Shown here: positions 8,158 to 57,864 of the stretch, one piece after another
How positions within the stretch are numbered: the stretch's first letter is position 1
Layout of the letters: each line of letters begins with the position of its first letter
Assembly (NCBI GenBank): GCA_027483645.1
Contig: JAIXUD010000020.1
Span: 124,001-188,000 of the forward strand
Length of the DNA stretch: 64,000 nt
Source of the DNA: Sphingobacteriales bacterium
GTDB taxonomy: Bacteria > Bacteroidota > Bacteroidia > Chitinophagales > CAIOSU01
Direction of reading: 5' to 3'
The notes under the pieces: generated by a model
What the model saw: the letters and a program-made list of their open reading frames with translations, nothing else
Told to the model about the DNA's origin: nothing
Databases searched by the model: none
Translations under genes and position numbers: made by a program

Positions 8158-9951
8158 ATGAAAAAACTACACTACCTGCTGATGTTGGCTGTTGCCAGCG
8201 TATTGATGGCTTCTTGCGGCTATCCTGACCATCTAAAAACCCTGCCTAAAGAAACCGTAGCCGTGGTAAGCCTAGACCTTGCCGGTATGGCTAGCAAAGG
8301 TGACCTGCATAAACTACAAGAGGCTGACTTCTACAAGAAGATGCAGGAGGAAATGGCCAAGAAGGATGCCGAATCTGCTAAAGAAACGGATGAGTTTTTG
8401 AAAAACCCCTTGAACTACGGCATCAACTTTTTAGAGCCCGTTTACTTATTTGCTATAAACAATAATCAAGCTATGCCTTTTGGTGGCGTGAGCGTGGCCT
8501 TGGGCGATGCGCCGAAGTTTGAAACTTTCATTACCAAAATAACCAAATCGGGCGAAGTGGTATATACCATCGAGAAAGGCACAGGCTATAGCTTCCTTTC
8601 CACGGATGATATAACCTTTGCTTGGAACGAATTTGCCTTGGTGATAACCAACAAGGCCGATACGGCCAACAGTAATGTAGCCACGCTGGAGAGCATTTTT
8701 ACCGAAAAGGATAAAGACCAAAGCGTGGTAAGCCAGCCTGGCTTTAGCGATTACTATGATGACAGCAAGGATATTAGCGTATGGGTAAGTAGCACGGCCC
8801 TTGATATTGTTAAGAATGTTATGGAAGGCGTAGATGCCGAATCGGGTTCATCTGAAAATGAAGAATTTGCAAAGATTAGGGAGCAGCTAGAAGGCTCTAG
8901 CTTCCAAATGCACATGGCATTCAATGATGATGAGATACTTACCGAATACAGCTTTGAAATGAGCGATAAACTACAAGAGGCCTACGATAAGGAAATATTC
9001 AAAAAAGGTAGCCCAGAGAAGTTGAGCAACTTGGTAAGGGAAAAGGATTTTGCCGTATTTGCTACTTCCATCAATATCCAGAACTACCTGAGCATGATGC
9101 AGAACAATCCTGCTGTATCGGGTGAGACCAAAGAAACGATTAACAGCTATATTACTGTAGTACAGCAGTTTGTGGCGCCATTCGATGGCGACTTGCTGTT
9201 TACGGTAAGTAATTTGACTATTGTAGAGCGGGAAGTAACCGAAAGCGTTCGCATAGAAACCGAAGAGCCCCTAGATTCTTTGGTAGCTAGTGGCGATACT
9301 TTACTGATTGCCGATACCGTACTTACCGCCGATGCCAGCGGCCAGATTAACGATGACTTGATAGAGGAGTTATCATGGGATGAATTGGAAGCCCAGTACC
9401 GCGATACTACCTACATCAAAAAAACCGTTACCCCTATCTTTTTGGCGGCTACCACCGTTAATGATGAATCGCTTGGTTTGATTTTGGGCATGGCCCTAGG
9501 TAAAGACAAGCCAAAAGCTGGCAAAGTAACCAAGAGCGATTTGGGCAGTGGCATTGTAATCTACTCTACTATTAAAGATAAAGTGATAGTGGTAAGCAAC
9601 GATAAAAAGACCATTGAAGACATTAATTCGGGTACCTTTACCAACGGTGGCAAATCACTGCAAGCGGATGGCAGCAGCGACCACGGCATGTATATGTATG
9701 CCAACCTAAACCTAGAAGAATACCCTGCGGACGTAAAAGAAGAAATGACGAAGCCGAAGTCTACCAAAGATGCTAAGCAAACCGAGGCCCTATTACAGTT
9801 CTTCCAAATGTTTGACCATATGGAGGCGTACAACAATGATAACTACTCCGCCATCCTATCATTTAAGCTTAAGCCAACAGGCAACAACAGCTTATACACC
9901 CTTATTGAGGGTATGGGCAATGCGGCTTATAGCTCAGGAGCGTTGAAGTAA
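8158..9951 (+). CDS. DUF4836 family lipoprotein
   Basis: 597 residues with a lipoprotein signal (MASC, Cys20). The first mature segment, 'YPDHLKTLPKETVAVVSLDL', and the overall size match DUF4836 proteins of Bacteroidota, which are envelope lipoproteins without a known activity. Two repeats of the same alpha/beta organisation seem to be present, with a low-complexity acidic linker around residues 370-420. No catalytic motif is seen. Its own promoter box and a strong terminator frame it as a single-gene unit. Confidence 0.75.
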   Translation: MKKLHYLLMLAVASVLMASCGYPDHLKTLPKETVAVVSLDLAGMASKGDLHKLQEADFYKKMQEEMAKKDAESAKETDEFLKNPLNYGINFLEPVYLFAINNNQAMPFGGVSVALGDAPKFETFITKITKSGEVVYTIEKGTGYSFLSTDDITFAWNEFALVITNKADTANSNVATLESIFTEKDKDQSVVSQPGFSDYYDDSKDISVWVSSTALDIVKNVMEGVDAESGSSENEEFAKIREQLEGSSFQMHMAFNDDEILTEYSFEMSDKLQEAYDKEIFKKGSPEKLSNLVREKDFAVFATSINIQNYLSMMQNNPAVSGETKETINSYITVVQQFVAPFDGDLLFTVSNLTIVEREVTESVRIETEEPLDSLVASGDTLLIADTVLTADASGQINDDLIEELSWDELEAQYRDTTYIKKTVTPIFLAATTVNDESLGLILGMALGKDKPKAGKVTKSDLGSGIVIYSTIKDKVIVVSNDKKTIEDINSGTFTNGGKSLQADGSSDHGMYMYANLNLEEYPADVKEEMTKPKSTKDAKQTEALLQFFQMFDHMEAYNNDNYSAILSFKLKPTGNNSLYTLIEGMGNAAYSSGALK

Positions 9952-52523: not shown

Positions 52524-53840
52524 CTACCGCACCGTCACCTCTACCGTCACCATCTTGATGCTTTCAATCGGGGTGCCTTCAGGTTGTGGGGCCTCCCAAG
52601 CCGGCATTTTGTTTAGATGGTCTAGCATCAATTGGTCGTAAGGCATTCCCAATCCAGATACGATGGTGGCACGGGTGATTTTTCCTTTCTTATCAAAGCT
52701 TACTTCAAATACAATGATGCCCTTATAGCCTTTCGATTGCGTTTTTGGGTAAACCACTTTATCAAAATACTTCTGCAGCTCTACGCTACCGCCGGGGTAT
52801 TGCGCTTGATAAATGGATTGGTCGGCAGTACTTAAATCAAAAGCATTGTTACTATTGAAGTTGTTATTGCCCGTACCCTTGTTATAGATAGCCGGAGCGT
52901 CGGCGCTGCTGCCCATATGGCCAATTATGCCTTCGTTTAAGGTGTCCGAACGCTCTTCATTAGCTACTGTCGGGGCATTCGTAGATGGCTTTTGCTTGCT
53001 GGTGCTGGTAGTTGTTGGCGCGGGCGGTTGTAAGGCCACTACTTCATCGTTCTGTTCCTCATATGCAGGTTCGGGAGCACTCTTTTTATCATCAGCCACT
53101 ATCCCAGCTTCTTCCTTCTTTCGGTTTCTGTCCTTTTCCAAATCATCGCAGCAACCATTCGCATCGGTTACGGATACAGAGTAAGTGCCCGCAGCGAAAT
53201 TGGATTGCACCGTGTCACCCGTAATCGTTTTGGTATTGTCCCACATGTACGTATAAGGGCCTGTACCACCACTAGGGGTTACGGTTACCAGCCCACTATC
53301 GCCAGCACTTTCAGCAACTTCATTGGGCGATTGTAAAGGGGCCGACGGCTTTTGATTGCTTATTAGGCCTGAGCTATCCGCTTTTTCCATAGCAAGCTCT
53401 GGTGACTGGTCAGCAAACTTATTATTCACCATAAAAAAAGCAACTCCCAACACCAGCAGTACACTGGCCGCTGCGGCATACCTGTACCACCCGATTTGGC
53501 GTACTGGCTTCTCGGCTTTCAATATTATCGGGTCTGTAGCGGCGGTTTGGTTTATCAGTACTTCTCGGCCACTACTGGTTACTTTTTGCTTCAGTGCTTC
53601 TACCCGCTCCAATAGCTTAGCATCGGCTATGGCCAATGATGCCAGCGCCTGCTCCTTAGTGCCTAGCAATGCTATGCCCTCTGCCGCATCGCGGCACATC
53701 TCGCATTCATCCACATGTTGCTCCACCGCCTCTCGTGCACCGTTCTCCAACGGCCCGAAAACGTATAGCAACAGGGTTTCCTGCGTCAGGTCGCCGCTGC
53801 CGTCAAACAAAAAATCATATCTATCCCTCAGGTCGCTCAT
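52524..53840 (-). CDS. Anti-sigma factor fused to SprB-like repeat and TonB C-terminal domain
   Basis: 438 residues. Residues 1-90 form a cytoplasmic anti-sigma domain with the zinc motif His42-x3-Cys46-x2-Cys49. A transmembrane helix is at about 118-138. Outside the membrane an SprB-like repeat (183-230: 'GGTGPYTYMW', 'FAAGTYSVSVTDANGC') is followed by a charged and Pro/Thr/Ser-rich linker (235-300) and a TonB C-terminal domain (about 345-438, 'QYPGGSVELQKYF', 'KGYKGIIVFEVSFDKKGKIT'). Its start overlaps the sigma factor stop by 4 bp. It would hold the sigma factor and sense something in the periplasm. Confidence 0.82.
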   Translation of the reverse strand: MSDLRDRYDFLFDGSGDLTQETLLLYVFGPLENGAREAVEQHVDECEMCRDAAEGIALLGTKEQALASLAIADAKLLERVEALKQKVTSSGREVLINQTAATDPIILKAEKPVRQIGWYRYAAAASVLLVLGVAFFMVNNKFADQSPELAMEKADSSGLISNQKPSAPLQSPNEVAESAGDSGLVTVTPSGGTGPYTYMWDNTKTITGDTVQSNFAAGTYSVSVTDANGCCDDLEKDRNRKKEEAGIVADDKKSAPEPAYEEQNDEVVALQPPAPTTTSTSKQKPSTNAPTVANEERSDTLNEGIIGHMGSSADAPAIYNKGTGNNNFNSNNAFDLSTADQSIYQAQYPGGSVELQKYFDKVVYPKTQSKGYKGIIVFEVSFDKKGKITRATIVSGLGMPYDQLMLDHLNKMPAWEAPQPEGTPIESIKMVTVEVTVR

Positions 53841-54421
53841 TGCTTTTCAATCAAGTTCTTTAGGTTTCGCTTCCCATTCTGTATGTGGCTCTTTACTTGT
53901 AAGTCGGTCAATCCGGTTTGTTCGGTTATCTCTTTGTAGCTCTTGCCCTCCAAGTAAAACAGTACTATGCACAGCCGTTGCTCCTCGTTAAGTTTATCAA
54001 TACTGTTCTCCAGTTTTTGCAGGTACGTCTCCTTTTGGTCTTCTATATCAAGATGCGCTTCTTGCTCCGTTTCCATAACCGCATCCAAAAATTGCGTGTA
54101 CTCCTTCGTTCGGCCTTGCTGGGTTTGTGCTTTGCGAAGCAGTTGCAAGCAATGGTTTTTGGCCACGGTATATAGCCAAGGCTTAAATTGCTCCACTTCC
54201 CGTTCCAGCAAATCCTTGGCCAATTTTTCAAAGATATCTGCCACGGCATCTTGCGCGGCGGCTTGGTCCTTCAAATATTTAAGGCAAACACCCAGCGCCA
54301 AGTGCAGGTGCCTACGGTAAAGCTCGGCGAAATAGTCGGGCTCGCCCAAGGTACGGTACGCTTCCAGCAGGGCCTCGTCGGCCAGCTGCACATCTTTGGT
54401 ATGGCCCCCCACTTGGCTCAA
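53837..54421 (-). CDS. ECF-type RNA polymerase sigma factor
   Basis: 194 residues. Region 2 includes 'FAELYRRHLHLALGVCLKYLKDQAAAQDAVADIFEKL' and 'PWLYTVAKNHCLQLLR'. Region 4 has the helix-turn-helix 'QRLCIVLFYLEGKSYKEITEQTGLTDLQVKSHIQNGKRNLKNLI'. A small group IV sigma factor, translationally coupled to its membrane anti-sigma factor. It is divergent from the vWA gene 54583-56991, which is the most likely local target; the 161-bp intergenic region would contain both promoters. Confidence 0.93.
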   Translation of the reverse strand: MSQVGGHTKDVQLADEALLEAYRTLGEPDYFAELYRRHLHLALGVCLKYLKDQAAAQDAVADIFEKLAKDLLEREVEQFKPWLYTVAKNHCLQLLRKAQTQQGRTKEYTQFLDAVMETEQEAHLDIEDQKETYLQKLENSIDKLNEEQRLCIVLFYLEGKSYKEITEQTGLTDLQVKSHIQNGKRNLKNLIEKQ

Positions 54422-54582
54422 AACTACTTTATTCGGTTGTTTTTCAATGGTTTAAGGTAAAGACAAAAATTTAAGCCCTTTTAGTTTATGGAAAAATGCT
54501 GGTTGACGCATGGTGCTAATGTGTTTCAATCCCCCCAAATTACTAAAACCGTACCAATTCCTTCACCATCAAAAATAAGCTT

Positions 54583-56991
54583 ATGCAACCATTGTTCCAC
54601 CTAGCAAAACATACCGCTATAATAGTGCTGCTTTTGCTGCTATCCGCATTCAATAGTCAAGCCCAGCCTAACCCCGACGACAAAACTGGCTCGCCTTACT
54701 TTCAAGTGCAAGGCGAGGGTGTGGTAGATGGCCTGCCGCTGCTGCATACCGGCGTGGATGTAACTGTGAGCGGCGTAGTGGCCAATGTAACAGTCACCCA
54801 GGTATACAAAAACGAGGGCAAGGTGCCGCTAGAGGCTATTTACGTGTTTCCAGCATCTACCAGAGCAGCTATATATGGGCTAGAAATGGATGTGGCAGGT
54901 AAGAAAATTACCGCCATCATCAAAGAAAGTGGCGAAGCCCGAAAGGATTACGAAGCAGCCAAAAGCCAAGGCAAATCGGCCACCTTGCTGGAGCAGCATC
55001 GCCCGAATGTGTTTCAAATGAACGTGGCCAATATACTGCCCGGCGAGGCCATACATGTTACCCTGAAATATACTGAGCTATTAGTGCCTACTGATGGGGT
55101 GTACGAATTTGTATACCCTACGGTAGTTGGGCCACGCTACCACAACAGCCCGCCGCTTACTGCAAGCACCCAAATTATGATACCGCCCGGTTCTTGGGTG
55201 GAAAACCCATATTTGAGCGAAGGGGAAATGTCCAAATCCACCTTCGATATCAAAGCCAGTATAAACGCAGGTATGCCCATTGCATCGGCATCGGTGGGTA
55301 CGCACCAAGTTAATGTGTCGTACAAAGACAAATCGCAAGCGCTTATCAGCCTAAAGCCAGAGGAATGCAACGGCGGCAACCGCGACTATATATTGCAATA
55401 CCGCTTGAAAGGCGATAACATCAATACAGGCATTCTACTATATCCAGGCGCTACCGAAAACTTTTTTGTGGCGATGATACAACCACCCAAGCGGGTAACC
55501 CCCGACAAGCTGCCTGGCCGCGAGTACATTTTCGTGGTCGATATTTCTGGTTCAATGGACGGTTTCCCGATTGCGGCCTCGAAAGAATTGCTGAAGAAAC
55601 TGATTGGTAGCTTGAAACCTACTGACGTATTCAATGTAATCACTTTTGCGGGAGGTAGCTCATTAATGCATCCTCAATCGGTACTGGCGAATGCAGCCAA
55701 CATTAAAAACGCCATCAAAACCATCGAAGGTTACCAAGGCGGGGGCGGAACGGAGCTGTTGCCGGCGCTTAATACGGGTTTGAGTCTACCTGAATTCAAT
55801 GGCTATGCCCGCTCGTTTGTAATAGCCACCGATGGCTATATAACCGTAGAGAAGGAAACCTTCGACCTGATGCGGGCTAAACTGGGCGATGCCAACTTCT
55901 TCACCTTCGGCATTGGCAGTAGTGTAAACAGGTTGCTGCTGGAAGGCATGGCGCGCATAGGCAAGGGCGAAGTGTTTGTGATTACAGACCCTAACCAAGC
56001 GGGCTTCTATGCCGATAAATTCAAGAAGTATGTGGAGAACCCCGTGCTTACGGGCATTAGCATCAATTATGGCGGTTTGAATGCCTATGATGTGGAGCCG
56101 AGCGCCGTGCCCGATGTACTGGCTGATAGGCCGATTATGGTGATTGGTAAATATAAAGGCACCCCAACGGGCAAAATAGTGGTTACCGGCACTTCTGGGA
56201 GCGGGAAATTTACCACAGAGCTTGATTTGGCCACGGCTTCCATCTCTAAAGAGCATAGCGCCCTACCTTACCTGTGGGCTCGAACTCGAATACAGATGTT
56301 GGATGATTACAACACGCTAGGCTACTCTGCAGATAAGGAAGCCATTAAGAAAGAAGTAACCAACCTGGGCCTACAATATAACTTGATGACAGCCTACACC
56401 TCGTTTATTGCGGTGGATGAGCGTGTGCGCACCAATGGGCTACCTACTACCGTAACCCAGCCCTTGCCTTTGCCTAAGGGGGTAAATAATAATGCAGTGG
56501 GCGGAAATATTGCCGTTAGCCCCAGTACAGGTAGCGGTTCCTACACCTACCAATGGAATACTGCACCTGGTGAAGGCAGGAGCGAATTCACTCTTGCCAC
56601 AGGTGGTACTTATACCGTGACTGTGACCGATGCTAATGGAGCGGATGAGGAGGATTGCAAAGTGAGAGATAAAGACGTGAGCAAGCTGGAGATAGCCGAG
56701 CAGTTGCCCCAATACCCCGGCGGCGATGCGGCCCTACAGCAGTACTTAAAGGCCAACCTAAAATACCCTACCAAAGCCAAAGAAGCGGGCATAAGCGGTA
56801 CCGTATATGTGGAGTTTGAAGTAGGCAAAGATGGCACCCTAAACAACCCCAAAGTGATACGGGGCGTAAGCACCGAACTGGATGCAGCTGCACTGGAGGT
56901 AGTGAAGAAGATGGGCAAATTTAAACCCGGCACTACGGGTGGCAAGCAGGTAGCTTGCAAGATGGTGTTACCTATTTGTTTTAAACTATAA
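54583..56991 (+). CDS. VIT-vWA protein with SprB-like repeat and TonB C-terminal domain
   Basis: 802 residues with a signal peptide (ends NSQA before QPN). Domains in order: VIT (about 40-165; 'VANVTVTQVYKNEGKVPLEA' and 'ARKDYEAAKSQGKSATLLEQ'), vWA (about 315-480; MIDAS 'VVDISGSMDG', 'GGGGTEL' and 'IATDGY'), a helical C-terminal region, an SprB-like repeat (about 640-690, 'GSYTYQWNTAPG', 'GGTYTVTVTDANG') and a TonB C-terminal domain (about 705-802). The MIDAS suggests a metal-dependent binding function at the cell surface. The last two modules match those of the anti-sigma factor encoded divergently. Confidence 0.85.
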   Translation: MQPLFHLAKHTAIIVLLLLLSAFNSQAQPNPDDKTGSPYFQVQGEGVVDGLPLLHTGVDVTVSGVVANVTVTQVYKNEGKVPLEAIYVFPASTRAAIYGLEMDVAGKKITAIIKESGEARKDYEAAKSQGKSATLLEQHRPNVFQMNVANILPGEAIHVTLKYTELLVPTDGVYEFVYPTVVGPRYHNSPPLTASTQIMIPPGSWVENPYLSEGEMSKSTFDIKASINAGMPIASASVGTHQVNVSYKDKSQALISLKPEECNGGNRDYILQYRLKGDNINTGILLYPGATENFFVAMIQPPKRVTPDKLPGREYIFVVDISGSMDGFPIAASKELLKKLIGSLKPTDVFNVITFAGGSSLMHPQSVLANAANIKNAIKTIEGYQGGGGTELLPALNTGLSLPEFNGYARSFVIATDGYITVEKETFDLMRAKLGDANFFTFGIGSSVNRLLLEGMARIGKGEVFVITDPNQAGFYADKFKKYVENPVLTGISINYGGLNAYDVEPSAVPDVLADRPIMVIGKYKGTPTGKIVVTGTSGSGKFTTELDLATASISKEHSALPYLWARTRIQMLDDYNTLGYSADKEAIKKEVTNLGLQYNLMTAYTSFIAVDERVRTNGLPTTVTQPLPLPKGVNNNAVGGNIAVSPSTGSGSYTYQWNTAPGEGRSEFTLATGGTYTVTVTDANGADEEDCKVRDKDVSKLEIAEQLPQYPGGDAALQQYLKANLKYPTKAKEAGISGTVYVEFEVGKDGTLNNPKVIRGVSTELDAAALEVVKKMGKFKPGTTGGKQVACKMVLPICFKL

Positions 56992-57132: not shown

Positions 57133-57864
57133 ATGATGAAGTATTTACTGCTGTTGCTGTTAGCATTCCTTTGCTCCTGCGCAACCGATACGGAGCCAAC
57201 CGAAAGTGCCACCTCTGCAACCGATACTACCGCAACCGCCACCCCTGCCGAAGACCCAGCCCTTGCCGCGCTGGGCGAAGAAGATAGAAATCGATTGCTA
57301 GAGTATGGCATCGATATTTACAAGGGGATACCGCAAGGCCTGAGGGTGGGCGAAACAGCCCCCATTTTCAAGGCTAACGACCATACTGGCAAGGAGCTCT
57401 TTTTGCCCGACTTATACAAAAAGCAACCCGTGGTTATGGTGTTCTACCGTGGGGTTTGGTGCCCGGCTTGCAACCAATATCTATCGGCCCTGCAAGACTC
57501 CTTAAAATACATAAAGAACGCTGGTGCCATGCTGGTTGCCATTTCACCGGAATCAGTAGAGAAGGTAAAAGAAACTGTGGACTCCACGGACGCTAGTTTT
57601 TCTGTAATATCCGATCCTAATGGGTATGTAATGAGCGCTTATGGGCTCAGTTTTCACGTTACCAAAGAGTATCAGCAAATGGTAAATGACAAACTGGGAG
57701 TTGACATTGCCACCAACAACATTACCGAAGATGCTAAGTTGCCAGTACCCGCCACCTATATCATTGGTACTGATGGTAAAATAAAGTACGTGTACTTCCA
57801 CCCCGACTATCACCAGCGTGCTACTGTTAAGGAGATTGTAGAAGAATTGAAAAAACTTAAGTGA
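57133..57864 (+). CDS. Peroxiredoxin-like (AhpC/TSA) lipoprotein
   Basis: 243 residues. Lipobox LLCSC with Cys16 or 17 as the anchor, then a Thr/Ala/Glu-rich linker to about residue 50. A thioredoxin-fold domain follows: 'VGETAPIFKANDHTGKELFL', 'VVMVFYRGVWCPACNQYLSAL' with the WCPAC redox pair, 'MLVAISPES' and 'VPATYIIGTDGKIKYVYFHPDY'. Related to AhpC/TSA proteins that reduce peroxides or exchange disulfides. The lipid anchor puts it in the periplasm. Independent promoter likely, as a strong terminator precedes. Confidence 0.87.
   Translation: MMKYLLLLLLAFLCSCATDTEPTESATSATDTTATATPAEDPALAALGEEDRNRLLEYGIDIYKGIPQGLRVGETAPIFKANDHTGKELFLPDLYKKQPVVMVFYRGVWCPACNQYLSALQDSLKYIKNAGAMLVAISPESVEKVKETVDSTDASFSVISDPNGYVMSAYGLSFHVTKEYQQMVNDKLGVDIATNNITEDAKLPVPATYIIGTDGKIKYVYFHPDYHQRATVKEIVEELKKLK

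Follow-up and report, generated by a model that had tools for sequence, protein, structure and literature searches.

Systems of the RpoE/RseA type combine an extracytoplasmic function (ECF) sigma factor, a membrane anti-sigma factor with a periplasmic sensor and an envelope regulon, and the FecI-FecR-FecA system sets an anti-sigma factor and a TonB-related element in the periplasm. RshA, the partner of SigH in Corynebacterium glutamicum, is presumably a soluble redox anti-sigma factor of Actinobacteria. One study describes a SigH-dependent promoter that lies within the sigH coding region and transcribes rshA alone (PMC3489674); another gives the ECF promoters of F. psychrophilum SM6 a CGT -10 box and type IX secretion system (T9SS) targets (PMC9723704), and a survey reports a class I anti-sigma factor nearby for 6% of Bacteroidetes ECFs versus 32% over all phyla (PMC7406223). 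Here we describe a locus in a 64,000-nt stretch of contig JAIXUD010000020.1 of a Sphingobacteriales bacterium (GCA_027483645.1; the window, whose positions serve as coordinates throughout), in which an ECF sigma gene and a membrane anti-sigma gene lie divergent to a gene for a secreted VIT-vWA protein.

We consider it likely, on the strength of comparative sequence analysis, that this locus encodes an envelope-stress ECF sigma/anti-sigma system that governs a small regulon and restrains itself by negative feedback. The sigma switch probably turns on a set of envelope defence proteins, some of them related to two protease inhibitors of human blood, and one of its "on" signals appears to sit inside the sigma gene itself; this putative regulon and the intragenic feedback site are the larger finding, a variant of ECF envelope-stress regulation. 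The control of the many ECF sigma factors in Bacteroidota is largely open; for this one we can name a membrane anti-sigma factor whose presumed sensor end has an unusual fold, together with a defined promoter sequence, a set of candidate target genes and a putative feedback site. If the reading is true, alpha-2-macroglobulin, VIT-vWA and DUF4139 proteins, whose roles in bacteria are to our knowledge unsettled, would be joined in one stress response. Among open-licence PMC papers we found none on an anti-sigma factor with a TonB C-terminal domain (TonB_C), on its pairing with VIT-vWA proteins or on the motif described below.

Conserved neighbourhood, promoter-like motif and intragenic site

The sigma gene (53837..54421, minus strand; 194 aa, with a TTG start in the open reading frame (ORF) call) overlaps the anti-sigma gene (52524..53840, minus strand; 438 aa) by 4 bp in the ORF list, and the VIT-vWA gene (54583..56991, plus strand; 802 aa) is divergent from both. 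This is the arrangement that the original prediction had drawn from the same DNA, and all three ORFs were found where it placed them. The sigma factor is of the ECF type, with an NCBIfam match to TIGR02937 of 87.3 bits (cut-off 42.9) and Pfam matches to Sigma70_r2 (47 bits) and Sigma70_r4_2 (45 bits), corresponding to ECF regions 2 and 4, and it is the only match of its subfamily profile in its own genome at E <= 1e-30.

We compared the best 80 loci by similarity to the window vWA protein, taken from genome contigs, and drew from them 31 distinct Bacteroidota-type loci with a VIT-vWA protein ending in TonB_C. These exclude same-contig duplicates and 13 non-Bacteroidota loci whose VIT-vWA end matched the TonB_C hidden Markov model (HMM), and they include two loci from uncultured bacteria (L040, L041; L numbers denote loci and G numbers genomes), two that look like near-duplicates (L063, L068) and four with less than 1.4 kb upstream. 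The same sigma/anti-sigma pair occurs in 18 of the 31 (the window, L032, L035, L036, L037, L038, L039, L042, L044, L045, L046, L048, L049, L050, L054, L056, L060 and L093). It is divergent from the vWA gene in 17 of these, with other genes between in L035 and L050, and convergent in L093, so that the linkage of sigma and vWA is not merely that of a shared divergent promoter. Seven loci, of which six are labelled Bacteroidales, have a small TonB-type gene between sigma and vWA, and in L045 such a gene follows vWA. By gene order the pairing is real and old, and the two-gene neighbourhood, on whose conservation in relatives the original prediction had staked itself, recurs well beyond the window.

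Upstream of vWA, and pointing at it, 21 of the 31 loci carry the motif TTTATGGAAT-N14-CATC. Its exact form, TTT(A/G)TGGA(A/T)(A/T)-N14-CATC, is present in 12 of 14 divergent intergenic regions (those of the 17 divergent loci other than L035, L046 and L050, which have longer gaps), where it faces vWA or a TonB-vWA operon; the window and L032 have it with one to a few changes. When the 12 sites were scored by a leave-one-out position weight matrix (PWM), none of 500 shuffles, which keep single-base composition, scored as well as any of them. Seven loci not used for training (the window, L032, L033, L035, L047, L050 and L093) reach scores of 14 to 27, each equalled by no more than 1 of 500 shuffles. 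The window's own site, TTTATGGAAA-N14-CATG (54485..54512, plus strand), which we regard as a candidate ECF-type promoter of the vWA gene, was matched by none of 500 shuffles, and its TATGGAA core is kept in the genus. The motif is also found at L033 and L047, where the fetched stretch holds no sigma/anti-sigma pair, and in L034 (17.5) and L046 (26.8) it falls inside the called ORF, whose 5' end was set too far upstream. Together, the neighbourhood and the ECF-type motif before vWA strongly support the link between the sigma and vWA genes that was proposed from the window alone. Between the candidate promoter and the vWA start lies a 24-bp block, AAATTACTAAAACCGTACCAATTC (54537..54560, no strand assigned), which is identical in all five aligned genus genomes, three of them without a vWA gene, and which the ECF motif does not explain.

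A second copy of the motif, GTTATGGAAA-N14-CATCTT (54050..54079, minus strand), lies within the sigma gene and faces the anti-sigma gene, some 430-510 bp from the vWA promoter, in the window's own genome and in Bacteroidales genomes. A scan of both strands of the window with a PWM trained on 12 other genomes, the window excluded, ranked this site first (19.5) and the vWA site second (15.6), followed by a match at 12.4, and in 13 other ECF sigma genes from this genome no position scores above 4.1. In an alignment of sigma genes the intragenic site maps to a single point of the region 2-4 linker, and its synonymous positions are held across 37 genes (40 aligned genes less two unrelated sigmas and one near-duplicate). 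The codon preceding the M/V residue ends in T in 37/37 genes while nine different codons are used (expected 16.6, standard deviation 2.8), with the proviso that the sequences are related by descent and binomial p-values are too small. The M/V codon is ATG or GTG in 37/37; glutamate is encoded by GAA in 36/36, the remaining gene having AAT there; histidine is CAT in 31/31, with CCT in four genes and AAT in two; leucine is CTN in 27/27, and all 37 genes have C right after the His position, whichever of Leu, Pro, His or Gln is encoded there. Across the 186 columns, synonymous constraint peaks at the motif's two flanks. A promoter-like element is maintained by selection within coding sequence in many families of one class, and motif, position and synonymous constraint all agree with what an intragenic anti-sigma promoter of the PrshA type would present.

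We also considered 29 further sigma genes, the loci returned from a phylum-wide draw among 53 matches outside the window's own genome. Seventeen score at least 14 at the same place, three of those in a TGCAA form, and G389 has both an internal and an upstream site. The family f21 (L404, L408, L410, L411, L416, L424) has TGCAA rather than TGGAA in its intragenic element at unchanged spacing, which suggests a shifted -35 preference of its sigma factor. A bidirectional ECF promoter that would also drive sigma was rejected: neither the window nor its genus has a site before sigma, and such a site was found in three of the 29 further genes (L403, L412, L420).

Candidate regulon

The window's own genome contains eight exact motif matches. 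Besides the vWA and intragenic sites and one match within another gene, they comprise five that stand 21 to 145 bp before genes, encoding a TonB (72.8 bits), a 341-aa TonB-like protein (21.7 bits, below cut-off), a DUF4140/DUF4139 protein, a 2043-aa alpha-2-macroglobulin and a toroid-like secreted protein; a one-mismatch motif precedes a DUF4349 gene. Among these regulon candidates of the own genome (L308-L313), the toroid protein is squalene-cyclase-like and the DUF4349 product is a lipoprotein. Across the genus, the site stands before alpha-2-macroglobulin in five of five genomes, before DUF4139 in four of four tested, before DUF4349 in three, and before the others in some. Among alpha-2-macroglobulin relatives from 24 genomes, 15 of 20 have the site and two more have it with a 13-nt spacer; G006 has it before alpha-2-macroglobulin though it has no vWA match. 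DUF4139 genes carry it in 6 of 21 cases (G000-G003, G641, G642). DUF4349 was rejected as a general regulon member: 3 of its 14 genes have a site, and those three belong to the genus.

Over 57 VIT loci, a score of at least 18 was reached by 4 of 56 VIT genes versus 1 of 383 other genes, and that single non-VIT gene is an anti-sigma gene behind its intragenic site. VIT genes of a different, longer subfamily have the site in G039, G153, G171, G210 and G439, all genomes with this sigma factor. Counting genomes by sigma content, with absence defined as no match at E <= 1e-30, VIT genes with a site number 6 of 11 in sigma-bearing genomes versus 0 of 49 in genomes without (p = 9e-6); these 60 VIT genes are part of the listed set, mostly its best-scoring members, with seven loci from genomes outside the sigma sample left out.

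Domains of the two proteins and their relatives

The VIT-vWA protein has, in order, a signal peptide (identified by eye), a VIT domain (54745..55071, plus strand; PF08487, 119 bits), a vWA domain (55528..55998, plus strand; PF13768 (VWA_3), 64 bits, and PF00092), a linker with an SprB-like stretch, and a TonB_C domain (56755..56988, plus strand; PF03544, 71.5 bits, cut-off 24.6) that is ordered in an AlphaFold model. This is the secreted VIT-vWA protein with a TonB_C end that had been predicted earlier. TIGR03788, the marine proteobacterial sortase target family, matches residues 54-639 at 406.4 bits, below its cut-off of 551.65. No sortase signal is visible in the protein, which ends in TonB_C without a membrane tail, and no sortase gene was found among six window genes scanned with Pfam, no wider sortase search having been made.

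The anti-sigma protein consists of Hx3Cx2C zinc-finger helices, one transmembrane helix (residues 115-143 in the AlphaFold order profile), a long disordered linker and a C-terminal domain. Its zf-HC2 match is 18.5 bits, below the Pfam cut-off of 22.2, and H42, C46 and C49 are invariant in 18 homologues. The TonB_C-like domain (residues 342-437; 52530..52817, minus strand) is scored by Pfam at 14.5 bits, below the cut-off of 24.6 (E 0.051). We nevertheless accept this weak match as real because a family HMM recognises it at 2e-21, its training set containing the window's own sequence; because the domain is modelled as an ordered alpha-beta-beta-alpha-beta fold from a shallow alignment of 18 sequences; and because ranks 1-17 of its fold matches in the PDB are all TonB C-terminal domains or TonB homologues, at E-values of only 0.02-0.3. 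The TonB C-terminal domain originally assigned to this protein thus holds up. Among the 18 vWA-linked anti-sigma factors, 15 have TonB_C at E <= 0.01; the remaining three are the window's own, with its TonB fold, and those of L032 and L050, which end before the domain at a contig end or at the end of the fetched stretch.

The original prediction had also noted an SprB-like repeat that precedes TonB_C in both proteins. The segment of the anti-sigma protein (53163..53303, minus strand; Pfam stretch at residues 180-202, extended by eye to about residue 226) scores 28.5 bits against a cut-off of 28, and that of the vWA protein (56503..56658, plus strand; start from Pfam residue 641, end by eye) scores 16.5 bits, below the same cut-off. 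Both do run to TDANG, as had been observed, and end in VTDANG, and both are disordered or of low confidence in AlphaFold models. The idea of a shared SprB and TonB_C pair acting as one module did not survive: an SprB match occurs in 2 of 18 homologous anti-sigma factors and was seen in the window's genus only, whereas TonB_C is general among vWA-linked anti-sigma factors, and we rejected SprB as a conserved common module. A recent copying of an SprB and TonB_C cassette between the two genes is likewise unsupported, the window's two TonB_C domains lying far apart in a poorly resolved tree (93 columns, 27 of 56 inner branches open).

The pair reaches further than the vWA gene, with profile matches to the anti-sigma N-terminus in 185 of 248 genomes of the order. 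Among 20 anti-sigma factors read from the order, mostly from the top of the profile-match list, four end in TonB_C (G001, G002, G003, G011) and the other 16 look TPR-like by eye. The loci L228-L247 and L196 combine one sigma and one anti-sigma N-terminus with at least two periplasmic ends (TonB_C and, by eye, TPR-like), which amounts to a natural sensor-swap series; zinc cysteines are missing in the anti-sigma factors of G006, G044 and G013. Three genomes of the window's own genus (G001-G003, 90-97% complete) yielded nothing that matches the VIT-vWA body. Where vWA would be expected, they retain the upstream region with its promoter, the start codon and a 27-28-codon stub with a hydrophobic, signal-peptide-like frame (about 8706-8792, minus strand, in L228 from G003, with corresponding places in L229 and L230 from G001 and G002), and their anti-sigma factors have a complete TonB_C. 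Most simply read, these genomes once had vWA and lost it but kept the anti-sigma TonB_C; the stubs are possibly decaying, or possibly kept.

Of 50 loci from outside Bacteroidota that share the VIT-vWA body, 20 hold an ECF sigma factor and a zinc-finger anti-sigma factor in the fetched stretch, which we read as a parallel system in other phyla. None of five such anti-sigma factors scanned has TonB_C, two being weakly DUF4349-like and two weakly DUF2275-like, and one of three VIT-vWA proteins scanned (L057) has TonB_C above cut-off. A VIT-vWA relative near an ECF sigma factor and a zinc-finger anti-sigma factor of another type is seen in L051, L061, L076, L078, L080, L100, L109, L111 and others. 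At the window itself, a gene for an AhpC/TSA peroxiredoxin-like lipoprotein (57133-57864) adjoins the vWA/sigma locus, as it does in L032, and judged by N-terminal sequence the same gene stays at the locus in G003 (L228) despite the loss of vWA.

Proposed regulation and comparison with known systems

One explanation that would accommodate these observations is as follows. At rest, the membrane anti-sigma factor would hold the sigma factor through its N-terminal zinc-finger helices, with the periplasmic TonB_C fold as its sensor end. Envelope trouble would alter what this end binds and so free the sigma factor; by analogy with TonB, and judging from the fold, the likeliest kind of ligand may be a TonB-box-type strand of an outer-membrane protein. 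We infer that the freed sigma factor reads the TTTATGGAAT-N14-CATC promoters and that control runs from it to the genes behind them, namely those for VIT-vWA-TonB_C (together with a TonB gene in several Bacteroidales), alpha-2-macroglobulin, the DUF4140/DUF4139 protein, TonB-type transducers and others. The promoter copy inside the sigma gene would then yield extra anti-sigma factor and shut the response off. Alpha-2-macroglobulin and the VIT-vWA inter-alpha-trypsin heavy chain both belong, we presume, to vertebrate plasma protease-inhibitor systems, of which the proteins here would be bacterial relatives.

Several observations weigh against this explanation. Among the 31 vWA-TonB_C loci, 13 show no sigma/anti-sigma pair, some of them on short contigs, and ten vWA genes have no convincing site (L040, L041, L043, L063, L065, L067, L068, L087, L105, L137); the window's own vWA site ends in CATG instead of CATC. 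The full matrix puts the best site of the L036 and L044 sigma genes elsewhere than at the aligned position, and of the 29 further sigma genes three more carry a weaker TGCAA form and nine lack an internal site, two of these (G433, G259) having a site upstream of sigma instead. No site precedes 15 of 21 DUF4139 genes or 11 of 14 DUF4349 genes, and the 16 of 20 order anti-sigma factors without TonB_C indicate that this domain is dispensable for the sigma part of the wiring. There is also no genome-wide excess of the motif in the window's genome, where 33 matches with at most one mismatch compare with 49 for the reversed pattern. We made no use of the counterpart in five Bacteroidales genomes (26-38 versus 7-18), the reversed pattern being a poor control because ATGGAA is presumably favoured at start codons; exact matches over the genus number 33 against 22.

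The intragenic site could instead be a by-product of protein conservation, reflecting the MExxxxxHL stretch of the linker between sigma regions 2 and 4 rather than a promoter, and it is indeed in frame, with the M/V, E and H residues largely conserved. This seems to us very improbable, since the fixed letters fall at synonymous or residue-changing positions (T in 37/37 over nine codons, ATG or GTG in 37/37, C for Leu, Pro, His and Gln alike) and the same string and spacer recur in non-coding DNA before vWA and alpha-2-macroglobulin. One may also postulate that the sigma factor is controlled through the zinc finger or through anti-sigma proteolysis, with TonB_C doing no more than tether the protein to the cell wall or an outer-membrane protein. 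The variation of the C-terminal domain among relatives with the same sigma factor and N-terminus (TonB_C in 4/20) agrees with this, as do the zinc cysteines missing in some of them, but a swap of outer domains around a constant sigma part is also expected from a change of sensor, and TonB_C is the rule among vWA-linked anti-sigma factors once the window and two truncated sequences are set beside the 15 clear cases; we regard an anchor as the less probable role, at perhaps the level of an unlikely alternative.

A further possibility widens the idea in the original prediction that the anti-sigma and vWA proteins compete for one partner. One ligand would be bound by TonB_C both in the anti-sigma factor and in regulon products (vWA and the TonBs), such that free ligand frees the sigma factor and the products soak up the ligand and restore the anti-sigma factor. 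This extends the envelope-stress explanation rather than excluding it, and we think it improbable as it stands. In its favour, the proposed sensor shares TonB_C with at least two candidate targets (vWA and the 72.8-bit TonB), the 341-aa TonB-like protein being a weaker third; a TonB-type gene accompanies sigma and vWA in the eight loci noted above; and the domain tree groups anti-sigma, TonB and vWA domains from L042, L046, L049 and L056 in a supported seven-row set (99/93). That tree is poorly resolved, however, and a neighbouring branch holds the L042 and L049 vWA domains and the L056 anti-sigma domain. Identity between anti-sigma and vWA domains is 0.380 within loci versus 0.363 between loci (permutation p = 0.078), no TonB_C in the set diverges more than that of the anti-sigma factors of the window's genus (stem branch about 6), and outside Bacteroidota the domain is found in 1/3 VIT-vWA proteins and 0/5 anti-sigma factors. 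As G001-G003 keep the anti-sigma TonB_C without vWA, vWA abundance cannot be the sole thing that the anti-sigma factor reports, and the loss argues that vWA is at most one of several competitors. The most elaborate form, a domain-titration homeostat in which sensor and outputs compete for one envelope ligand, the outputs pair alpha-2-macroglobulin with VIT-vWA and the brake is a sigma-read promoter in the sigma factor's own linker codons, we hold to be doubtful, a little more so than ligand competition by itself.

The envelope-stress explanation places the locus near several described systems without matching any of them. With FecI-FecR-FecA it shares an anti-sigma factor and a TonB-related element in the periplasm, but the anti-sigma factor has no FecR domain (no Pfam match up to E 0.1), no TonB-dependent receptor gene was found among the six window genes scanned with Pfam, the only ones scanned, and TonB_C is on the anti-sigma factor itself. 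The likeness to the RpoE/RseA type lies in an ECF sigma factor, a membrane anti-sigma factor with a putative periplasmic sensor and an envelope regulon; it differs in having a TonB_C fold as the proposed sensor end and a different candidate regulon, with no RseB-like match among the same six genes. The TIGR03788 sortase targets have the same VIT-vWA body, whereas the protein here falls below that family's cut-off and has a TonB_C end in place of a membrane tail. P. gingivalis SigP and F. psychrophilum SM6 are likewise ECF sigma regulons of Bacteroidota; unlike that of SM6, the -10-like element here is CATC, and the putative targets are alpha-2-macroglobulin, VIT-vWA, TonB and DUF4139 proteins. 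The sigH-rshA pair shares with this locus a promoter, or here a promoter-like site known from sequence alone, for the anti-sigma gene inside the sigma gene. It differs in that the anti-sigma factor here is a membrane protein with TonB_C, and in that the internal site is conserved over many Bacteroidota at one codon-level position, in the linker between sigma regions 2 and 4.

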